64,000 nt of DNA. Origin: an uncultured Flaviramulus sp. (GTDB taxonomy: Bacteria; Bacteroidota; Bacteroidia; Flavobacteriales; Flavobacteriaceae). The first letter of the stretch is position 1. Each line of letters starts with the position of its first letter. The notes beneath the pieces are model-generated. The model saw nothing but the letters and a program-made list of their open reading frames with translations. It made no database searches and was not told the DNA's origin. Below, piece after piece: positions 27,448 through 34,680 of this stretch. The stretch is from the NCBI GenBank assembly GCA_947495125.1, contig CANLXL010000004.1:210322-274321 (forward strand), in the 5' to 3' direction. Both the position numbers and the translations under genes were made by a program.

Positions 27448-28773
27448 ATGAAAAAATTAGCACTGCATTGGAAGATTATTATAGGAATGATTCTCGGAAT
27501 CATTTTTGGTTTTATTATGAATGGTGTTGATGGCGGAAAAGGATTTGTAACCGATTGGGTTTCGCCTTTTGGAACGATCTTCATTAACCTTTTAAAGCTT
27601 ATCGCGGTCCCGCTAATTTTGGCATCTCTAATTAAAGGTATTTCAGATCTCAAAGATATTTCTAAAATAAAATCGATGGGCTTACGTACTATTGGTATTT
27701 ATATTGGAACGACATTAGTGGCCATAGTGATTGGTTTGAGCATTGTTAATACGCTCAAACCCGGAAATGGGATGCCACAGGAAACCATTGAAAAAATCAA
27801 ACTTAAATATGAGAATGACGCCGGTGTAGTAGATAAACTAACCAAAGCCAGTGCACAGCAAGATGCAGGGCCATTACAAGCTTTGGTGGATATTTTTCCA
27901 AGTAATATTTTTAGATCTTTTGCAGAAGCTTCTATGCTACAGGTGATCTTTTTCGCTTTATTTGTTGGTATATGTTTGTTACTGATCGGAGAGAAGAAGG
28001 CTAAACCTCTGGTAAACTTTTTTGATTCCCTTAATGAGGTGGTTATGAAGATGGTAGATTTGATCATGCTTTTTGCACCTTATGCTGTTTTCGCTTTATT
28101 AGCCAATGTGATTATTGCTTTCGATGATACTGAGATTTTGGTAAAACTATTGTATTATGCTTTATGTGTGGTTGGCGGATTAATTTTAATGATCGGCTTT
28201 TATCTTCTTTTGATTAGCATTTATGTGAAAAAGTCGCCCCTATGGTTTTTAAAAGAAATAAGTCCGGCACAACTGCTGGCCTTTTCAACGAGCAGTAGTG
28301 CCGCCACTTTACCGGTTACCATGGAACGTGTTGAAGAGCATTTGGGTGTAGACAAAGAAGTGACTGGTTTCGTTTTACCAGTTGGAGCCACGGTCAATAT
28401 GGATGGAACAAGTTTATATCAAGGCATTGCAGCGGTATTCATTATGCAGGTTATTTGGCCTGAAGGTCTAACCTTTACAAATCAATTGGTTATTGTGGCA
28501 ACGGCGCTATTAGCTTCTATAGGAAGTGCAGCGGTACCGAGTGCAGGAATGGTTATGCTCGTTATTGTGTTGGAATCTATTGGTTTTCCGGCGGAATTAT
28601 TACCCATAGGCCTGGCGCTTATTTTTGCTGTAGATAGACCATTAGACATGTGTAGAACGGTTGTAAATGTTACCGGAGATGCTACAGTTTCAATGATGGT
28701 TGCGAAGTCTTTGGACAAACTTCATGATCCAAAACCCAAAGAATGGGACGATCACTACGATGAAGTAAAATAA
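27448..28773 (+). CDS. Dicarboxylate/amino acid:cation symporter (DAACS, GltP-like)
   Basis: Inner-membrane secondary transporter of 441 residues with about eight membrane helices and two re-entrant loops. Family hallmarks are the serine-rich hairpin FSTSSSAATLPVTM (about 285), VGATVNMDGTSLYQG (about 310) and DRPLDMCRTVVNVTGD (about 395) in the substrate and cation site. Likely substrates are glutamate, aspartate or C4-dicarboxylates with sodium or protons. The Asp and Arg in the last motif fit an acidic amino acid carrier, but the choice is inferred. It precedes the ATP-grasp gene by 126 bp. Confidence 0.92.
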   Translation: MKKLALHWKIIIGMILGIIFGFIMNGVDGGKGFVTDWVSPFGTIFINLLKLIAVPLILASLIKGISDLKDISKIKSMGLRTIGIYIGTTLVAIVIGLSIVNTLKPGNGMPQETIEKIKLKYENDAGVVDKLTKASAQQDAGPLQALVDIFPSNIFRSFAEASMLQVIFFALFVGICLLLIGEKKAKPLVNFFDSLNEVVMKMVDLIMLFAPYAVFALLANVIIAFDDTEILVKLLYYALCVVGGLILMIGFYLLLISIYVKKSPLWFLKEISPAQLLAFSTSSSAATLPVTMERVEEHLGVDKEVTGFVLPVGATVNMDGTSLYQGIAAVFIMQVIWPEGLTFTNQLVIVATALLASIGSAAVPSAGMVMLVIVLESIGFPAELLPIGLALIFAVDRPLDMCRTVVNVTGDATVSMMVAKSLDKLHDPKPKEWDDHYDEVK

Positions 28774-28899: not shown

Positions 28900-29940
28900 A
28901 TGAACATTTGTTTTTTAATGTATCCTTGGGAAGACATCGATCCGGACAACGATACAAGTTTAGCATTAATTAAAGAATGTGTTAAACGAGGGCATGGGGT
29001 AGCTATGTGTACACCTGCAAATTTAACTATTAGAAATAGTGTGACTAATGCGACCTGTATGGTTATTAAGCGCATGGAGAAAACTCCAAGCTCTTTAAAG
29101 TCCTTTTATAAAAAAGCAGAATTGCGTGAAGAGATGTTGCCTCTCGCCGGGTTCGATGTTATCTTTTTTAGAGCAAACCCGCCATTAGATCCAATTATGC
29201 TTAATTTCTTAGATTCTGTTAAAGATGATGTGTTTATAATGAATTCGCTAGAAGGTATGCGAGAGGCTAATAATAAGCTCTATACGGCTGCTTTTGGAGA
29301 TGCTCACAGCAATATTATTCCGGCAACTCATGTCTCTAAAAGTAAAAGATATTTAATCAAACAAATTAAAGAATCTACGGCCGATAGAATGATTTTAAAA
29401 CCTCTTAACGGCTTTGGTGGTTCTGGTGTTATTTTAATAGAAAAATCGGCGATGAGTAATATCAACTCACTTCTCGATTTTTATATTAATAGCAGTGGTG
29501 ACGGGACGTCTAACTATGTCATTTTACAGGATTATATTGAAGGTGCAGATCAAGGTGATGTTCGTATTTTAATTTTAAATGGTGAACCGGTTGGGGCGAT
29601 GAAACGCGTGCCGGGATCTGATGACCATCGTTCTAATGTTTCTGCCGGCGGTAGTGTGCAAAAACATACTTTAACTAAAGCGGAAAAGGCTTTATGCAAA
29701 CAGATCGGACCGAAATTAGTTAACGACGGATTGTTCTTTGTGGGCATTGATGTTATCGGAGGGAAACTGGTTGAAGTGAATGTGATGTCGCCGGGAGGTA
29801 TAACCTATATCAATAAAGTGTATAAACTAAAAACCAAGATAGAAGAAAAGGTCATAGACTTCTTGGAAATGAAAGTTTTAGATAAACTTCAGGCTTTCGA
29901 CAGAAGAACTAGGCTTAGAAAAACGGTTCAGGATGCCTAG
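28900..29940 (+). CDS. GshB-like ATP-grasp amide ligase
   Basis: ATP-grasp protein of 346 residues related to prokaryotic glutathione synthetase. The N terminus (MNICFLMYPWEDIDPDNDTS) resembles the GshB start, the ATP-grasp core has ILKPLNGFGGSGVILIEK (about 165-185), ADQGDVRILILNG (about 215-228) and the Mg-binding EVNVMSPGGITYIN near residue 290. No gamma-glutamylcysteine synthetase is in the window, and bshA indicates bacillithiol, so glutathione is an unlikely product. It begins a run with rhodanese, N-formylglutamate amidohydrolase-like and DUF1704 genes, suggesting ligation of an amino acid to an unknown carboxylate. Fold is sure; substrate unknown. Confidence 0.85.
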   Translation: MNICFLMYPWEDIDPDNDTSLALIKECVKRGHGVAMCTPANLTIRNSVTNATCMVIKRMEKTPSSLKSFYKKAELREEMLPLAGFDVIFFRANPPLDPIMLNFLDSVKDDVFIMNSLEGMREANNKLYTAAFGDAHSNIIPATHVSKSKRYLIKQIKESTADRMILKPLNGFGGSGVILIEKSAMSNINSLLDFYINSSGDGTSNYVILQDYIEGADQGDVRILILNGEPVGAMKRVPGSDDHRSNVSAGGSVQKHTLTKAEKALCKQIGPKLVNDGLFFVGIDVIGGKLVEVNVMSPGGITYINKVYKLKTKIEEKVIDFLEMKVLDKLQAFDRRTRLRKTVQDA

Positions 29941-29981
29941 GGCATTGACGGGCGTATTTGACTTCCATAAACACCTATTTA

Positions 29982-30803
29982 ATGAATTCTAAAATAGATT
30001 TAACATCCCCGATCGTTTCAGTAGACTGGTTGCACGATCATTTGGATGCTGGGGATATCGTTGTGTTAGATGGTACTATTAATAAGGTATTCGATGACTC
30101 TCAAAGTCAAATTCCCAATGCACGATTTTTTGATATAAAAAAGGTGTTTAGCGATACCACAAATCCGTTCCCAAGTGCCTTTCCTTCTACGGAGCAGTTT
30201 CAAAGAGAAGCCAGAAAATTAGGAATTAATACAGACAGTGCTATTATTGTGTATGACGATAAAGGGATCTATTCCAGTGCACGGGTATGGTGGCTCTTTA
30301 AAGCTTTCGGGTATAACAATGTTTCAGTTCTAAATGGTGGTTTTCCGGCCTGGCTAAAAGCCGGATATCCGGTAGAACCTATGAGAGTATACCATGACGC
30401 AAGTGGTAATTTTACGGCGAATCTTCGACCGGGCTACATGAGGTTTTTTAAAGACATGGAACAGGCTTCAAAGCACAAAACACATACTATTATAGACGCG
30501 CGTTCAGATGATAGATTTAATGCTATCACGCCCGAGCCCAGAGAAGGCTTGCGTATGGGGACCATCCCAAACTCGGTTAATCTGCCCTATACGACTTTAT
30601 TAGAAGATGGTATTTTGAAACCTAAGGCTGTATTAGAAACTTTATTTGGAAAGTTAGCACAAGTCGAAGATGAAATCATTTTTTCTTGTGGATCTGGCAT
30701 AACGGCTTGTGTTTTGGCATTGGGCGCGGAATTGTCGGGTTACCAGAACATATCTATATATGATGGTTCATGGACAGAATGGGGTAGTTTGGTTAAGGAA
30801 TAA
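29982..30803 (+). CDS. Two-domain rhodanese-like sulfurtransferase (SseA-like)
   Basis: Thiosulfate/3-mercaptopyruvate sulfurtransferase family protein with two rhodanese domains (about 10-130 and 150-273). The active loop is CGSGITA with catalytic Cys236, as in mercaptopyruvate sulfurtransferases. I take the ATG at 29982 as start; a TTG at 29958 would add eight residues before the conserved start and is less likely. It lies 41 bp after the ATP-grasp gene and 7 bp before the amidohydrolase gene. It could deliver sulfur for a thioamide or thiol product of this cluster, but a general detoxification role is equally possible. Confidence 0.88.
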   Translation: MNSKIDLTSPIVSVDWLHDHLDAGDIVVLDGTINKVFDDSQSQIPNARFFDIKKVFSDTTNPFPSAFPSTEQFQREARKLGINTDSAIIVYDDKGIYSSARVWWLFKAFGYNNVSVLNGGFPAWLKAGYPVEPMRVYHDASGNFTANLRPGYMRFFKDMEQASKHKTHTIIDARSDDRFNAITPEPREGLRMGTIPNSVNLPYTTLLEDGILKPKAVLETLFGKLAQVEDEIIFSCGSGITACVLALGAELSGYQNISIYDGSWTEWGSLVKE

Positions 30804-30810
30804 ATAATCT

Positions 30811-31641
30811 ATGTTAAAGTTATCAGTTGAAGGTATTATAAACAAAATTAAAGCTGAAGATGTTTTTGAAGCCATATCTTCAGATTATTCATTCACTATA
30901 AAAATTGAGGAGTTCGTTCCATATGTTTGTGGTGCAATACATGACGGGCATCAATTTAGAAAAGAACTATGGTCTAATTGTATTCATACGGAGTACGATC
31001 GATGGTACGAAGAAGACCCCGAGACTAAAAATATGGTAAGATCGCATCCCATTGTCATCGCCGGGTGCGATTCACGTTTCGAGTATGACCTGAACAGAGC
31101 CCCTGAAGACGCTGTTTTTGAAACGGCCTGGGGTAAACAATTATGGCATAAACCACTATCGCAAGAGATGAAAGCAAAAAGCCTTCAAAAACATACCAAC
31201 TTTTATGATGTTGTGCATGCGCTTATTTCAACAATAGAATCAAAATTTGGTTTTTGCACGGTTTACGATATGCACAGCTATAACTGGAAGCGCTGGGATA
31301 GACCTGTTCCAACCTGGAATTTAGGAACAATGAATGTTGATAGTTCGCGATTTGGAAGGGTTATTGAAAATTGGAGGCAAAGTCTTTCAGAAATTGATTT
31401 CCCAAATGCCATAAAATCTACTTCGAAAATTAATGATACCTTCCAGGGCAATGGTTATTTTTTGAAATTTATAACGAAAAATTTCAATAATACCTTAGTT
31501 TTGGCAACAGAAATAGCCAAAGTGTATTGTGATGAGTACGAACATATTATTTTTCCGGAAGTTGTTAGTACGGTAGAACGGGCGTTGAAGGTAAGAATTC
31601 CCGAGCACGCCTTAAACGTGTACAATACCTTTAAAACATAG
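30811..31641 (+). CDS. N-formylglutamate amidohydrolase-like protein
   Basis: Metal-dependent amidohydrolase family protein of 276 residues, related to HutG of histidine breakdown. Visible motifs are IHDGHQFRKE (about 43), AGCDSRFEYDLNR (about 85), the metal/catalytic DMHSYNWKRW (about 153) and a C-terminal FPEVVSTVERAL region. No hut genes are nearby, and it is packed between a rhodanese gene (7 bp before) and a DUF1704 gene (6 bp after), so its role is probably hydrolysis of an N-acyl or gamma-glutamyl-type amide made or used by the cluster. Family is sure, substrate inferred. Confidence 0.85.
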   Translation: MLKLSVEGIINKIKAEDVFEAISSDYSFTIKIEEFVPYVCGAIHDGHQFRKELWSNCIHTEYDRWYEEDPETKNMVRSHPIVIAGCDSRFEYDLNRAPEDAVFETAWGKQLWHKPLSQEMKAKSLQKHTNFYDVVHALISTIESKFGFCTVYDMHSYNWKRWDRPVPTWNLGTMNVDSSRFGRVIENWRQSLSEIDFPNAIKSTSKINDTFQGNGYFLKFITKNFNNTLVLATEIAKVYCDEYEHIIFPEVVSTVERALKVRIPEHALNVYNTFKT

Positions 31642-31647
31642 GTTTTT

Positions 31648-32808
31648 ATGAAAATTGATAATAATGTTGCGGTTAAAACCCTTTTGCAAATCGATAAAAA
31701 TATTGATGCGTTGGTTAAGCAAATAGAATTGCTTAGTTATGTAAATCCTACGAATATTGAAGAAGAGAAAGAACGGTTTTTTTCTTCCAAGTATCTTACA
31801 GATCCTGTTTTTAAATATCCAAATATTAATTTTGACCGTTTTAAACTGCACAGAAAATTATTCGAAAATAACTTAGAGATCATTGAAAACGAAAAGATCA
31901 GGAAGTTATATGAAGATATTATTTATACGTATTCGGGCTTAATACAATGTATAGAAACCATTGGTAGTGGAAAAAAATTCTACTACAACTGCTTGCATTG
32001 TTTCGGTACACCAACGGAAAATGATGTTGAAAATGCGAAGTTCATCCTTCATTTTGAGGATGAAGCTAAAGACACTTCGCCTTTGCAGCCTAAATATAGT
32101 GCTAAAGAAGCTGAATCTTTCTTTAGATCATTTTCCAAGCAATACGATTTTAGTTATGACATCGCGTATTCCGATAAGATTTCGGCAATAGCCATGGTAT
32201 TAAATAATATTAAAACCCTGGTTTTAAATACCAATCATAGGTATTCGGATAATGAAATAGCTGTATTGACCAATCATGAAATTGGTGTTCATATGGTAAC
32301 GACGATGAATGGTTTATTACATCCTTTAAAAATATTTTCTCATGGCTTTCCAAATAATGAAGAAACACAAGAGGGTCTTGCTGTTTTTTCAGAATATATG
32401 AGTAATAATTTAACCGTTACGCGTTTAAAAGAGTTGGCATACCGAGTGATTGCAGTAGATAGCCTGGCAAAGGGCTATTCATTTTCCAAAACCTTTAGAT
32501 TGCTTCATAATCAATACGATCTGGATAGAGAAAACGCATATTATATAACGCTTAGGGCACACCGTGGGGGTGGTTTTACAAAGGACTATTTGTATTTAAC
32601 AGGACTTAAAAAAGTTTACGATTACTACCATGAAGGGAAAGACCTGAGTTTATTACTAACCGGAAAAGTGACTTTGGAATATGCATATGAGGTCAAAGTA
32701 CTAATCGCTAAAGGACTGGCTGTTCCTGCAAAGCATATCACAGATGCTTATGCCGTAAATAGTAATACAAATAAAACCGTAGATTTTATATTGCGGAATC
32801 TAAAATAG
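31648..32808 (+). CDS. DUF1704 (QEGLA motif, MATCAP-like) metallopeptidase
   Basis: Protein of 386 residues of the DUF1704 family, often called flavohemoglobin expression-modulating QEGLA motif protein. It carries HEIGVH (His210, Glu211, His215), the HExxxH zinc motif of the family, and the eponymous QEGLA with Glu242 as likely third ligand. The animal member KIAA0895L/MATCAP1 is a tubulin tyrosine carboxypeptidase, so a carboxypeptidase acting on a peptide C terminus is the best guess. A conserved YITLRAHRGGGFTKD segment follows near residue 300. It lies between the amidohydrolase (6 bp) and the CPBP gene (3 bp), clearly one transcript. Confidence 0.85.
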   Translation: MKIDNNVAVKTLLQIDKNIDALVKQIELLSYVNPTNIEEEKERFFSSKYLTDPVFKYPNINFDRFKLHRKLFENNLEIIENEKIRKLYEDIIYTYSGLIQCIETIGSGKKFYYNCLHCFGTPTENDVENAKFILHFEDEAKDTSPLQPKYSAKEAESFFRSFSKQYDFSYDIAYSDKISAIAMVLNNIKTLVLNTNHRYSDNEIAVLTNHEIGVHMVTTMNGLLHPLKIFSHGFPNNEETQEGLAVFSEYMSNNLTVTRLKELAYRVIAVDSLAKGYSFSKTFRLLHNQYDLDRENAYYITLRAHRGGGFTKDYLYLTGLKKVYDYYHEGKDLSLLLTGKVTLEYAYEVKVLIAKGLAVPAKHITDAYAVNSNTNKTVDFILRNLK

Positions 32809-32811
32809 CCT

Positions 32812-34680
32812 ATGACTAAAACGATTCAGTATTTCGTATGTTTTTTAATCTCATTTTCTTTTTTCGGACAGGAAAACATAAGGGTAGATCAGAAAAACAG
32901 TCATGAATTATTTGTTGAAATACTTACAAAGTCAAAAGACTTAAAATACCAGGAAATATTAGATTTTTATGACCATTACGTTGCTATACATCCGGAAGAT
33001 ATAGCGGTGAAAATTTATAAATGTAAATTTATAGGAAGTGCCTATTACGACGCGTACGAGGACTATAATTTAAAGTATGATGAAACTCAGGACTGTATTG
33101 AACATTTGTATGAAACATATCCAAACCATCCGGAAGTTCTACTTTACAAATTAGAGAATACCTATGGCGAGGAAGGGCTAGCACTTATTGATCAAACCAT
33201 AGAGGCTTATGATTTTGAAAGCACTGAGGAACCGGGATGGAATACAGAACAGATAAGTCGGTTTTACGAAGTTTGCTCGAATCGTTTTTATGATGATGAC
33301 TATAAGTCCATTATGTATGCAAAAAAGGCTGAATCTTTTAATGACACGCTAGACCTTTCCGTTTCAATTTCGAAGTCCTATATAAACCTTAATAATATAA
33401 AAAAGGCCAAAGAGCGATTACTGTCTTCTCTTGACGTTGAACATGAGGCATGGGTTTTAAATGAAAAAGGAAAGCTTTTGGTTGAATTGGATGAGCATGA
33501 AAAGGCGCTAACCATGTTTGACCGTGTTTCTGAAAAGGATTCCACCTTTGCTAATAGTGAAAGTCTATACAAGATTTTTTTAGAACAAGAAAACTACGAA
33601 CAGGCGAGAACTTATTTGTTGAAGGATACATTGCAAACATGGAATAAAGTCATGAATATTCAAAAATTGGCTAACCATGATCTCTTGTATTCAAGTCCGG
33701 AATTGGCTCTTGAAAGTTACAGGAGAATGCAGCAGGAAAGCTATTACGATGATTTTTTCGGAATTAAGAGGTTGAAAATATGCTTAAGAACGCCTTTTGA
33801 ACCCTGGACATTTTCTGAAGCGTCTCATGTTCTGATTTTGATGGCGCTCGTAGTCATCTTGTTTTTAATACCCTACCTATGGATTTTACCCATCTATGGT
33901 GTGAGTAATTTTTTTAAGTTGAAAAAAGTGAAATTGGAAGAGCAATTACCGGTCAATTGGTCTCTTAAACACTTTTGGATGATTAGCTTCATCTATTTGA
34001 TGTGTCAGGTTGTTTTAGTACTCTTTTTATATTACCAAGACTATATTAACTACCTTTTTGATATCGGCTATTCTTATGTCGATGAAAGCGTTGCAGAAAG
34101 TCAATTGGATTCGGCAAACTCGATCATCATTTATGCAGCAATCATGTTTATTACGGTATTATTCTTTTTGAATAAAGCACGGCTAAAATTTACCTTCAGC
34201 TCAATATTCCGCTACAGGCAGATTATTGGATTCAGTATACTTTTTGTGATATTCAATGGCATCATATTACGAATTTTAGGAAATTTTGTTGACCTCACTG
34301 ATGCCGCAAACATTATAAGGTCCTTGAGCGCCAGAGAGGAGATCGTGGCCGTTTTTAATGAATATGGATTTACCATTACCGTACTTGTAGTCGCCTTGAT
34401 TGTACCCTTTTATGAAGAGATTATATTTAGAGGAATTATTTTGTCTTCCACCGAGAAATATTTAGGGTTTAAAGGAGCTAACGTTATACAGGCATTCTTG
34501 TTCGCAACGGTTCATTTTAGTTTGTCGCTATTTGTGTTTTACTTTATTTTTGGCTTGATAACAGGGTATGCGGCAAAACGCACTAATGGTTTATTTATGG
34601 GGATTGCTTGTCATGCCGTTAATAATTTTGCAGCGGTACTAGCTATATATGCAGCAAGTCGGCTTTTAATAGGACTCTGA
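32812..34680 (+). CDS. TPR-CPBP family intramembrane protease
   Basis: Protein of 622 residues. A signal sequence (to about 20) leads into a helical repeat half (about 20-330) of TPR character, then about eight membrane segments from residue 335 on. The last 150 residues form a CPBP (CAAX protease and bacteriocin-processing, Abi) domain with motif 1 FYEEIIFRG (two Glu and Arg), motif 2 FATVHFS and motif 3 CHAVNNF. The Rce1-like fold cleaves or processes membrane-bound peptides; bacterial members serve in peptide maturation or immunity. It starts 3 bp after the DUF1704 gene, suggesting it belongs to that pathway. The TPR half may recruit the substrate. Confidence 0.85.
   Translation: MTKTIQYFVCFLISFSFFGQENIRVDQKNSHELFVEILTKSKDLKYQEILDFYDHYVAIHPEDIAVKIYKCKFIGSAYYDAYEDYNLKYDETQDCIEHLYETYPNHPEVLLYKLENTYGEEGLALIDQTIEAYDFESTEEPGWNTEQISRFYEVCSNRFYDDDYKSIMYAKKAESFNDTLDLSVSISKSYINLNNIKKAKERLLSSLDVEHEAWVLNEKGKLLVELDEHEKALTMFDRVSEKDSTFANSESLYKIFLEQENYEQARTYLLKDTLQTWNKVMNIQKLANHDLLYSSPELALESYRRMQQESYYDDFFGIKRLKICLRTPFEPWTFSEASHVLILMALVVILFLIPYLWILPIYGVSNFFKLKKVKLEEQLPVNWSLKHFWMISFIYLMCQVVLVLFLYYQDYINYLFDIGYSYVDESVAESQLDSANSIIIYAAIMFITVLFFLNKARLKFTFSSIFRYRQIIGFSILFVIFNGIILRILGNFVDLTDAANIIRSLSAREEIVAVFNEYGFTITVLVVALIVPFYEEIIFRGIILSSTEKYLGFKGANVIQAFLFATVHFSLSLFVFYFIFGLITGYAAKRTNGLFMGIACHAVNNFAAVLAIYAASRLLIGL

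Follow-up and report, generated by a model that had tools for sequence, protein, structure and literature searches.

A GshB-like ligase, an FGase-type amidohydrolase and a MATCAP metallopeptidase form a conserved trio that may build and break a peptide-like molecule

Three genes, encoding a GshB-like ATP-grasp ligase, an amidohydrolase of the FGase family and a MATCAP metallopeptidase, form the conserved core of a row of five genes in an uncultured Flaviramulus sp. and are inherited largely together across distant bacteria. Judging from the sequences, this core probably builds and breaks a peptide-like molecule. More specifically, and tentatively, we favor a cycle in which the three enzymes make and break an amide other than glutathione; its product would be a small acidic peptide bearing an acyl group.

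A conserved core of three genes

The window (the whole stretch of 64,000 nucleotides analyzed) contains five open reading frames on the same strand (Table 1; coordinates from the ORF listing), preceded by aroC and an SDF symporter gene transcribed in the same direction. Gene 2 might start at a TTG (29958) or at an ATG (29982), both reading to the stop ending at 30803; counted from the ATG, the intergenic gaps are 41, 7, 6 and 3 bp, bearing out the row of five closely spaced genes in one direction that a sequence-only reading of this DNA had described. Promoter-like sites were not in excess at the locus (18, versus a mean of 21.5 in shuffled sequences), and the sole terminator-like site lies within the CPBP gene, in a terminator scan that returned nothing above chance; a single predicted transcript is thus not contradicted.

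Table 1. Genes at the locus, with positions in the window
Feature	Position	Strand	Profile matches
SDF glutamate/dicarboxylate-type symporter, upstream neighbor	27448..28773	+	Pfam SDF 1.2e-124
GshB-like ATP-grasp amide ligase, core gene 1	28900..29940	+	Pfam GSH-S_ATP 4.6e-54, GSH-S_N 1.1e-23; NCBIfam PRK12458 6.2e-138
Two-domain rhodanese/mercaptopyruvate-sulfurtransferase-like protein, non-core neighbor	29958..30803	+	Pfam Rhodanese 3.8e-30 (2 stretches)
FGase-family M14-fold amidohydrolase, core gene 2	30811..31641	+	Pfam FGase 6.3e-13
MATCAP/DUF1704 (QEGLA) metallopeptidase, HEIGVH and QEGLA motifs, core gene 3	31648..32808	+	Pfam MATCAP 6e-95
CPBP-family membrane protease, TPR-like N-terminal half, accessory in window genome	32812..34680	+	Pfam Rce1-like/CPBP 6.2e-19

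In the window's family, Flavobacteriaceae, 199 genera were sampled and MATCAP was present in 96; a GshB-type ligase was found in 89 of these 96 genomes versus none of the 103 MATCAP-negative ones (raw counts, kinship ignored). The order GshB-(rhodanese)-FGase-MATCAP is kept within the family, with median gaps, start codons being assigned mechanically, of -8 bp between GshB and FGase (36 pairs) and 0 bp between FGase and MATCAP (68 pairs). The trio was also found in Alphaproteobacteria (rhizobia) and Gammaproteobacteria (Photobacterium), and in two lineages, represented by a class-level relative (L014) and a Photobacterium (L178), FGase and MATCAP are fused into one protein, which suggests one substrate for both hydrolases. 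The clustering of the three genes is not due to chance. Since the trio keeps its order and recurs in Proteobacteria, the core does not scatter in relatives, and the proposal that an amide ligase and two hydrolases are inherited as one unit stands, whereas the rhodanese and CPBP genes do not share this conservation.

No ligase-bearing genome is without MATCAP (0/89), while MATCAP occurs without the ligase in 7 of 96 genomes, including one (G212) whose locus is cut by the contig start. Loci with a lone MATCAP require just five parsimony events, on a tree whose branch supports are weak, so that this asymmetry is only suggestive. In 8 of 90 loci MATCAP follows the symporter without ligase or FGase, so that it can serve a separate use. 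One relative has a ligase reduced to a 67-residue remnant, with both hydrolases absent; another (G157) carries, near a contig end, an FGase gene without a recognizable ligase, and in its product the conserved His is lost, as is the Arg in DLNR. The family site, aroC-SDF-[...]-DCC-mutS2, is often the same and varies by the presence or absence of the bracketed part, a pattern more suggestive of recurrent loss or gain at a single position than of a roaming mobile island. A search of viral contigs with a single query, one long MATCAP, returned no relative.

The neighboring genes behave differently. The rhodanese, which falls below the cut-off of the NCBIfam 3-mercaptopyruvate sulfurtransferase equivalog (216.7 versus 250 bits), occurs in 26 of 90 loci and in 32 of 80 loci of a second sample, partly dependent on the first in that five of its loci (L184, L194, L232, L233 and L247) share DNA with the other sample of 89. 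The CPBP protein, whose N-terminal half gave only sub-threshold TPR matches (Pfam), has a relative at 4 of the 90 loci, wherever in the locus it may lie, and at 2 of the 80, adjoins MATCAP in the window only, and was not found in the six nearest relatives of the 80-locus sample (L182 to L187, of which L183 offers just 1.4 kb of downstream sequence); as a core gene it was ruled out on these grounds. Twelve MATCAP-negative loci were extended, and in 5 of them the rhodanese still follows the symporter although the trio is missing; as CPBP is rare, neither gene belongs to the core. Of the MATCAP-negative genomes, 30 were selected, and an SDF gene adjoins aroC in 21 of these (in 4 of the 21 it is only about 30% identical to that of the window); this pairing is independent of the trio, and the symporter, too, was ruled out as a member.

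Properties of the three enzymes

The window ligase scores higher with GSH-S_ATP than with RimK models (Pfam, NCBIfam), and it passes the cut-off of the NCBIfam glutathione synthase equivalog NF003573 (277.4 versus 272 bits) but misses that of TIGR01380 (234.5 versus 299 bits). It is 31% identical to E. coli GshB, 60% to the operonic ligase of Photobacterium and 31% to that of S. meliloti. Seven positions (E. coli K125, K160, R210, R225, D273, E281 and N283), which we take to be the ATP-grasp catalytic residues of GshB, are invariant among 89 operonic and 5 canonical sequences, whereas all 89 operonic ligases have G in place of T288; these ligases form a clade of their own (support 0.999), apart from a canonical GshB set of only five sequences. 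Glu_cys_ligase (PF04262) was detected in 0 of 199 genomes (2 of 14 controls positive) and GCS2 (PF04107) had no match in the genome of the window (5 of 14 controls positive). Elsewhere, GCS2 occurs in 35 of the 199 genomes, 20 of 96 with MATCAP and 15 of 103 others, indicating no clear partnership. PF08886 gave no match in 20 genomes, its control being likewise silent. According to PMC7063052, a gshB (SMc00419) mutant of Sinorhizobium meliloti 2011 contained no glutathione by HPLC. This is so although pSymB of strain 2011 encodes an operonic ligase. The absence of both γ-glutamylcysteine ligase families from the window's genome, the separate clade and this mutant phenotype make it likely that the operonic ligase is something other than a glutathione synthetase and that its database label is wrong.

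The amidohydrolase, which had no NCBIfam match, yielded an AlphaFold model (pLDDT 94.5) with the fold of N-formylglutamate deformylase (HutG), the nearest solved structure being N-formylglutamate amidohydrolase 2q7s (Z 24.6, rmsd 2.5, 238 aligned). The motifs S-R-F-x-x-D-x-N-R and D-x-H-S-Y-N are kept in 25 of 25 aligned rows. Its Pfam FGase score is 49.8 bits, versus 217.1 for a further FGase encoded on contig C2 of this genome, and we infer the high-scoring class to be HutG. In one arrangement FGase is replaced: a long MATCAP occurs at 17 loci, where its partner is a member of an aspartoacylase-type cluster in 10 (so labeled because the L119 member matches the Succinylglutamate desuccinylase/Aspartoacylase domain) and FGase in 5, while 2 have neither, the genomes of both of the latter having a second complete set (L076, L087). 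Both kinds of partner belong to enzyme groups known to act on N-acyl-Glu/Asp.

The metallopeptidase clearly belongs to its family (Pfam MATCAP, 318.7 bits versus a cut-off of 27), although it missed the narrower NCBIfam QEGLA model TIGR02421 (303.5 versus 338.65 bits). Besides the profile, the window protein has both HEIGVH and the downstream glutamate motif QEGLA, and HExxxH is present in MATCAP of 89 of 90 loci. Its predicted model (pLDDT 90.7) has the solved MATCAP fold, with human MATCAP as best matches (7z5g and 7z6s; E about 1e-8, TM 0.53 to 0.67, and 0.58 to 0.67 for chains 7z5g_B and 7z6s_C). Human MATCAP relatives were identified as tubulin carboxypeptidases only in 2022-2023 and, to our knowledge, the only relatives tested all act on protein tails. 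The human enzymes (MATCAP/TMCP) cleave Tyr and Glu off the C-terminal ends of tubulin tails (PMC10499314). In the literature searched, no substrate for bacterial MATCAP proteins turned up, and an earlier description of the trio neighborhood may exist; databases annotate the bacterial proteins as "flavohemoglobin expression-modulating QEGLA motif protein." Distant relatives in Pseudoalteromonas and Legionella have neither ligase nor FGase beside them, the divergent one in Pseudoalteromonas lying near betaine genes.

A possible make-and-break cycle and its alternatives

In the cycle that we favor, the GshB-like ligase would join a carboxylate and an amino acid in an ATP-driven reaction, MATCAP would take the terminal amino acid off again, and the FGase-type amidohydrolase would next cut the remaining amide, most likely that of an N-acyl group on glutamate or aspartate. 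We consider this quite possible, if somewhat short of probable. Direct observation covers the enzyme families, the predicted folds of FGase and MATCAP and the tight linkage; we also count in its favor the ligase/MATCAP co-occurrence, the hydrolase fusions, the swap of FGase for an aspartoacylase-type partner, the intact ligase residues, the FGase motifs, the HExxxH of MATCAP and the relative in which a ligase remnant is left without either hydrolase. From these we infer the activities, the reaction order, the acyl-acidic substrate and the small-molecule nature of the product. An amide other than glutathione is favored by the lack of Glu_cys_ligase in all 199 genomes, by the absence of GCS2 from the window's genome and of any clear GCS2 partnership, and by the S. 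meliloti mutant. Against the cycle stand the protein-tail substrates of the tested MATCAP relatives, the lone and the distant, partnerless MATCAPs, the two long-MATCAP loci with neither partner, the passed NF003573 cut-off and the 20 GCS2-positive MATCAP genomes; moreover, no N-acyltransferase was noticed linked to the trio (no systematic search), and the S. meliloti ligase, just 31% identical to ours, may be unexpressed under the conditions tested.

The main rival, which we judge possible but rather less likely, is a C-terminal protein tag, with the ligase adding an amino acid (e.g., Glu or Tyr) to a bacterial protein and MATCAP and the M14-fold hydrolase removing it, much as in tubulin tyrosination/glutamylation (TTL/TTLL, CCP, MATCAP/TMCP) or with RimK/RimB on ribosomal protein S6. 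All of the trio's fold types reappear among the enzymes of the tubulin code (TTLL, CCP and MATCAP), and human MATCAP strips Tyr and Glu from tubulin tails; a ligase never found without MATCAP would suit a tag as well, with the reservation about the tree given above. Likewise, a peptidase accompanies an ATP-grasp protein in RimK/RimB and in the Pseudomonas rlo operon, and in the latter the effect of losing the peptidases is rescued when the ATP-grasp gene is deleted (PMC12239564). However, in the cases known to us, partners of the FGase and aspartoacylase types work on small molecules, the ligase fits GSH-S_ATP better than RimK models, and no candidate target protein is linked to the trio. We further speculate, as an unlikely idea, that part of the toolkit that modifies tubulin has its bacterial counterpart in the trio and may even have evolved from it; here MATCAP would erase what a linked ATP-grasp ligase writes on a protein or peptide end, with an M14-fold protein as second eraser, all in one operon in Bacteroidota and Proteobacteria. 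A hypo-osmotic role, with Glu/Asp stored in peptides when salt falls and released by the hydrolases when it rises, seems less likely still, but it could be a physiological layer compatible with the make-and-break cycle. In Photobacterium damselae at 1% NaCl, the gshB-named A0J47_RS17020 is up 38-fold, the QEGLA gene A0J47_RS17025 27-fold and RimK 52-fold (PMC10308900); the former two have consecutive locus tags. Another Photobacterium has the trio, the Pseudoalteromonas relative lies near betaine genes, and rlo peptidase mutants fail to grow under hypo-osmotic stress (PMC12239564). Yet many P. damselae genes shift at low salt, that species lies outside Flavobacteriaceae and its locus is known from the published table only, and the Pseudoalteromonas gene is divergent and without ligase or FGase alongside.

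Two further readings strike us as highly improbable. Ordinary glutathione metabolism, with a true GshB and hydrolases degrading glutathione or its conjugates, would agree with the database names, the NF003573 score, the conserved ATP-grasp residues and the GCS2-positive MATCAP genomes, but it conflicts with the γ-glutamylcysteine ligase survey, the missed TIGR01380 cut-off, the separate clade with its T288G replacement and the S. meliloti mutant. Equally doubtful is the five-gene pathway of the sequence-only reading, in which the rhodanese would add sulfur and the CPBP protease process the product: the tight spacing in the window and a rhodanese gene that at times overlaps its neighbors speak for it, but the rhodanese also occurs without the trio and was not found in most trio loci, and CPBP is scarce; sulfur modification and membrane proteolysis thus find no support.

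By showing that bacterial MATCAPs travel alongside a ligase and a hydrolase of amides, the comparison gives an orphan family a three-step cycle that lends itself to testing. The name gshB or glutathione synthetase, widely given to the ligase gene, is probably wrong for these loci, which could touch conclusions such as that on the low-salt "GshB" response of P. damselae (PMC10308900).

Comparison with known systems

With canonical bacterial GshB, the trio's ligase shares domain order and ATP-grasp residues but differs in its separate operonic clade, in T288 being G, and in that no GshA-type partner was found in the window's genome. An RLAN-ATP-grasp/GCS2/FGase cluster in relatives (L272 to L274) also has FGase beside an ATP-grasp ligase; unlike the trio, it has GCS2 as a second ligase, no MATCAP and a different FGase subfamily. 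RimK and RimB modify the C-terminus of ribosomal protein S6. Their operons and the rlo operons likewise combine an ATP-grasp protein with an opposing peptidase gene, but RimB and RloA are retropepsin-like aspartic peptidases, and no FGase or MATCAP is described in the available portion of PMC12239564; at the window locus no retropepsin-like partner was found, the partners being FGase and MATCAP (Pfam). MATCAP/TMCP with TTL/TTLL offers the same peptidase family (PF08014, HExxxH, same fold) plus an ATP-grasp ligase, although the substrate there is eukaryotic tubulin, while the trio has a GshB-like ligase and an extra FGase or aspartoacylase-type protein. Finally, in the vertebrate NAAG cycle three steps are performed by a RimK-like ligase (RIMKL), glutamate carboxypeptidase II and aspartoacylase. 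That cycle is vertebrate, its carboxypeptidase GCPII belongs to another family than MATCAP, and the trio's product is putative, but in both cases an ATP-grasp-type ligase, a zinc carboxypeptidase and an M14-type N-acyl-amino-acid hydrolase act, or in the trio would act, sequentially on one acidic dipeptide.

Gene content and the extent of the unit

The five genes claimed by the sequence-only reading were all present as open reading frames of the window, with Pfam matches to GSH-S_N/GSH-S_ATP, Rhodanese (two stretches), FGase, MATCAP (the former DUF1704) and Rce1-like/CPBP. The nearest named MATCAP among the matches listed, from an uncultured Flaviramulus, was 88% identical to that of the window, whose genome measures 5.36 Mb and, judged by its named matches, probably belongs to Flavobacteriaceae. 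Sampling detected MATCAP in 10 of 148 genomes across the phylum and in 96 of 199 genera within the family. Together with the window, 89 of the 110 other MATCAP places from these samples formed a set of 90 loci (mostly 18 to 19 kb; 25 kb for the window), in which single-sequence phmmer, which misses distant relatives, detected the ligase in 82, the SDF symporter in 71, FGase in 69, AroC in 67, rhodanese in 26 and CPBP in 4; CPBP directly followed MATCAP on its 3' side in the window only. The 80 named loci (the best 80 of 569 relatives, several on cut contigs and five sharing DNA with the 90-locus set) contained FGase in 78, ligase in 75, SDF in 61, rhodanese in 32 and CPBP in 2. The core genes overlap or almost touch, with median gaps, for mechanically chosen start codons, of -8 bp between ligase and FGase (36 pairs) and 0 bp between FGase and MATCAP (68 pairs).

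A GshB-type ligase, defined by a PF02955 match of at least 130 bits, occurred in 89 of 96 MATCAP genomes versus none of 103 MATCAP-negative genomes (Fisher p 8e-49, a value that ignores shared descent). Among 30 chosen MATCAP-negative genomes, an SDF gene adjoined aroC in 21 (4 of these SDF genes being only ~30% identical to that of the window), and a short ligase match was seen at one locus. The latter was a 67-residue ligase remnant 5' of rhodanese, accompanied by neither FGase nor MATCAP, a sign of decay at that locus. When 12 MATCAP-negative loci were extended (contig ends truncated two), rhodanese was found 3' of SDF in five, and ligase, FGase and MATCAP in none. These loci and the co-occurrence counts therefore delimit a unit of three genes, ligase, FGase and MATCAP, which tend to be present or absent as a group, whereas SDF and rhodanese can persist; the proposed five-gene unit thus stands for the trio, but not for rhodanese, which can stay without it, or for CPBP (4/90 and 2/80 loci). 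Exceptions are the 8 of 90 loci with MATCAP alone 3' of SDF: six of these genomes lack the GshB type, and the other two carry it beside a long MATCAP (locus L120; genome G177). HExxxH is kept in 7 and the QEGLA motif in 6 of the eight lone MATCAPs, for which parsimony on a weakly supported tree gave 5 events.

Upstream of the trio in the named loci (L182 to L261), SDF identity to the window copy jumps between ~48% and 95%, almost independently of how similar the neighbouring genes are, as would be expected if two types of SDF were exchanged at a single site. The SDF-ligase interval is an insertion hot spot; secreted-looking proteins of ~260 to 390 aa with a QVGIGT-like start lie there in loci L085, L098, L103, L113 and others, and some loci have a mechanosensitive-channel-like protein (named by eye). 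A small protein without a Pfam match, found in or beside the rhodanese slot, resembles, by eye, the C-terminal extension of longer rhodaneses (~385 aa).

Coordinates of features in the compared loci
Feature	Locus	Coordinates	Remark
RLAN-type ATP-grasp/GCS2/FGase cluster	L272	2837-6201	Pfam run on this one of the three
RLAN-type ATP-grasp/GCS2/FGase cluster	L273	4852-8206	
RLAN-type ATP-grasp/GCS2/FGase cluster	L274	3084-6432	
gshB-named ligase in a different cluster	L267	3419-9681	Desulfocapsa sulfexigens plasmid
Locus compared with P. damselae	L178	5317-8308	Photobacterium
Small protein of rhodanese slot	L067	10483-10803	~106 aa
Rhodanese slot (small protein/longer rhodanese)	L082	6306-7466	

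Arrangements and predicted enzymes

The arrangements (ARRANGEMENTS) differ in their MATCAP: a short MATCAP (~390 residues) lies 3' of ligase and FGase, and a long MATCAP (~610 residues; N-terminal part without a Pfam match in locus L119) lies 5' of its own ligase. The 17 long-MATCAP loci held FGase in 5, a member of an aspartoacylase-type cluster (so named from a match of its representative in L119 to the Succinylglutamate desuccinylase/Aspartoacylase domain) in 10 and neither in 2 (L117 and L118), whose genomes have a second, complete set elsewhere. Rhizobial plasmids (Mesorhizobium, Aminobacter, Pararhizobium and S. meliloti pSymB) carry FGase first, then a long MATCAP and then the ligase. 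When 89 operonic ligases were placed in a tree, the 21 encoded 3' of a long MATCAP grouped with support of 1.0 and the other 68 with support of 0.973. FGase and MATCAP form one protein in locus L014 and also in Photobacterium sp. DA100; in the latter, the fusion is overlapped by the ligase ORF. Neither ligase nor FGase adjoined the more distant relatives of MATCAP in Pseudoalteromonas and Legionella.

Positions K125, K160, R210, R225, D273, E281 and N283 (E. coli GshB numbering; ATP-grasp catalytic residues) were invariant in the 89 operonic and 5 canonical ligases, and T288 was replaced by G in all 89 operonic sequences. In FGase, H44 and the SRF..D.NR and D.HSYN stretches were invariant in 25 of 25 aligned rows; its model (pLDDT 94.5) matched the N-formylglutamate amidohydrolase 2q7s (Z 24.6) and Atu2144 (2odf; Z 21.9), and much more weakly M14-type carboxypeptidases (Z ~10 to 13) and succinylglutamate desuccinylase 1yw4 (Z 11.2). 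MATCAP had HExxxH in 89 of 90 loci; the best structural match of its model (pLDDT 90.7) was human MATCAP, followed by weaker matches to carboxypeptidases such as 3hq2 and 5wvu.

Relation to glutathione synthesis

The operonic ligase is probably not a glutathione enzyme. Glu_cys_ligase was absent from all 199 genomes, with a positive E. coli control, and GCS2 was found in 35, of which 20 belong to the 96 MATCAP genomes and 15 to the 103 others, the genome of the window not being among them; PF08886, without a match in 20 genomes, adds nothing because its control was silent. In the part of the study consulted, loss of GSH in a chromosomal gshB (SMc00419) mutant of S. meliloti 2011 was validated by HPLC (PMC7063052). 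GSH was lacking although pSymB of this strain encodes an operonic ligase; that ligase is only 31% identical to that of the window, however, and may have been silent under the conditions of that study. Against this reading, however, the ligase passes the NF003573 cut-off, and some trio genomes do encode a GCS2 protein.

GCS2 (408 aa) also belongs to a second three-gene cluster, with an RLAN-type ATP-grasp protein (481 to 482 aa) and an FGase of another subfamily (225 to 237 aa); by-eye comparison of lists placed such an FGase near GCS2 in 22 of 23 genomes with a GCS2 of 406 to 450 aa (open frame). The D. sulfexigens gshB-named ligase accompanies a gamma-glutamyl-GABA hydrolase family protein, an oxidoreductase, a C45 peptidase and a radical SAM protein.

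Possible function and known systems

Our best reading, a tentative one drawn by analogy, is that the trio would make and then break an acylated acidic peptide, mainly because FGase alternates with the aspartoacylase-type protein and is fused to MATCAP in places. That it instead writes and erases a protein tag seems somewhat less likely; parts of the tubulin work on MATCAP/TMCP (PMC10499314) and of that on rlo and RimK/RimB (PMC12239564) speak for such a role. As excerpted, a study of P. damselae at low salt lists an annotated gshB up 38-fold and, at the adjacent following locus tag, a QEGLA gene up 27-fold (PMC10308900). This rise hints at a hypo-osmotic role of the trio, with the P. damselae locus judged by locus tags and a related Photobacterium; the reported "glutathione synthase GshB" may be the operonic ligase rather than a glutathione enzyme.

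The peptide cycle proposed here resembles the NAAG cycle, in which, according to the sections consulted, the peptide is synthesized from glutamate and NAA and cleaved by GCPII (PMC8836185); according to published abstracts, aspartoacylase also takes part. Iyer et al. (2009) may have listed such neighbourhoods in their work on amidoligases. The MATCAP/TMCP paper, in the portion consulted, surveys eukaryotes and does not mention bacterial homologues (PMC10499314). On these two grounds, we place the trio among amidoligase-peptidase operons already known as a kind, with its core delimited anew here and a proposed mechanism that can be tested.
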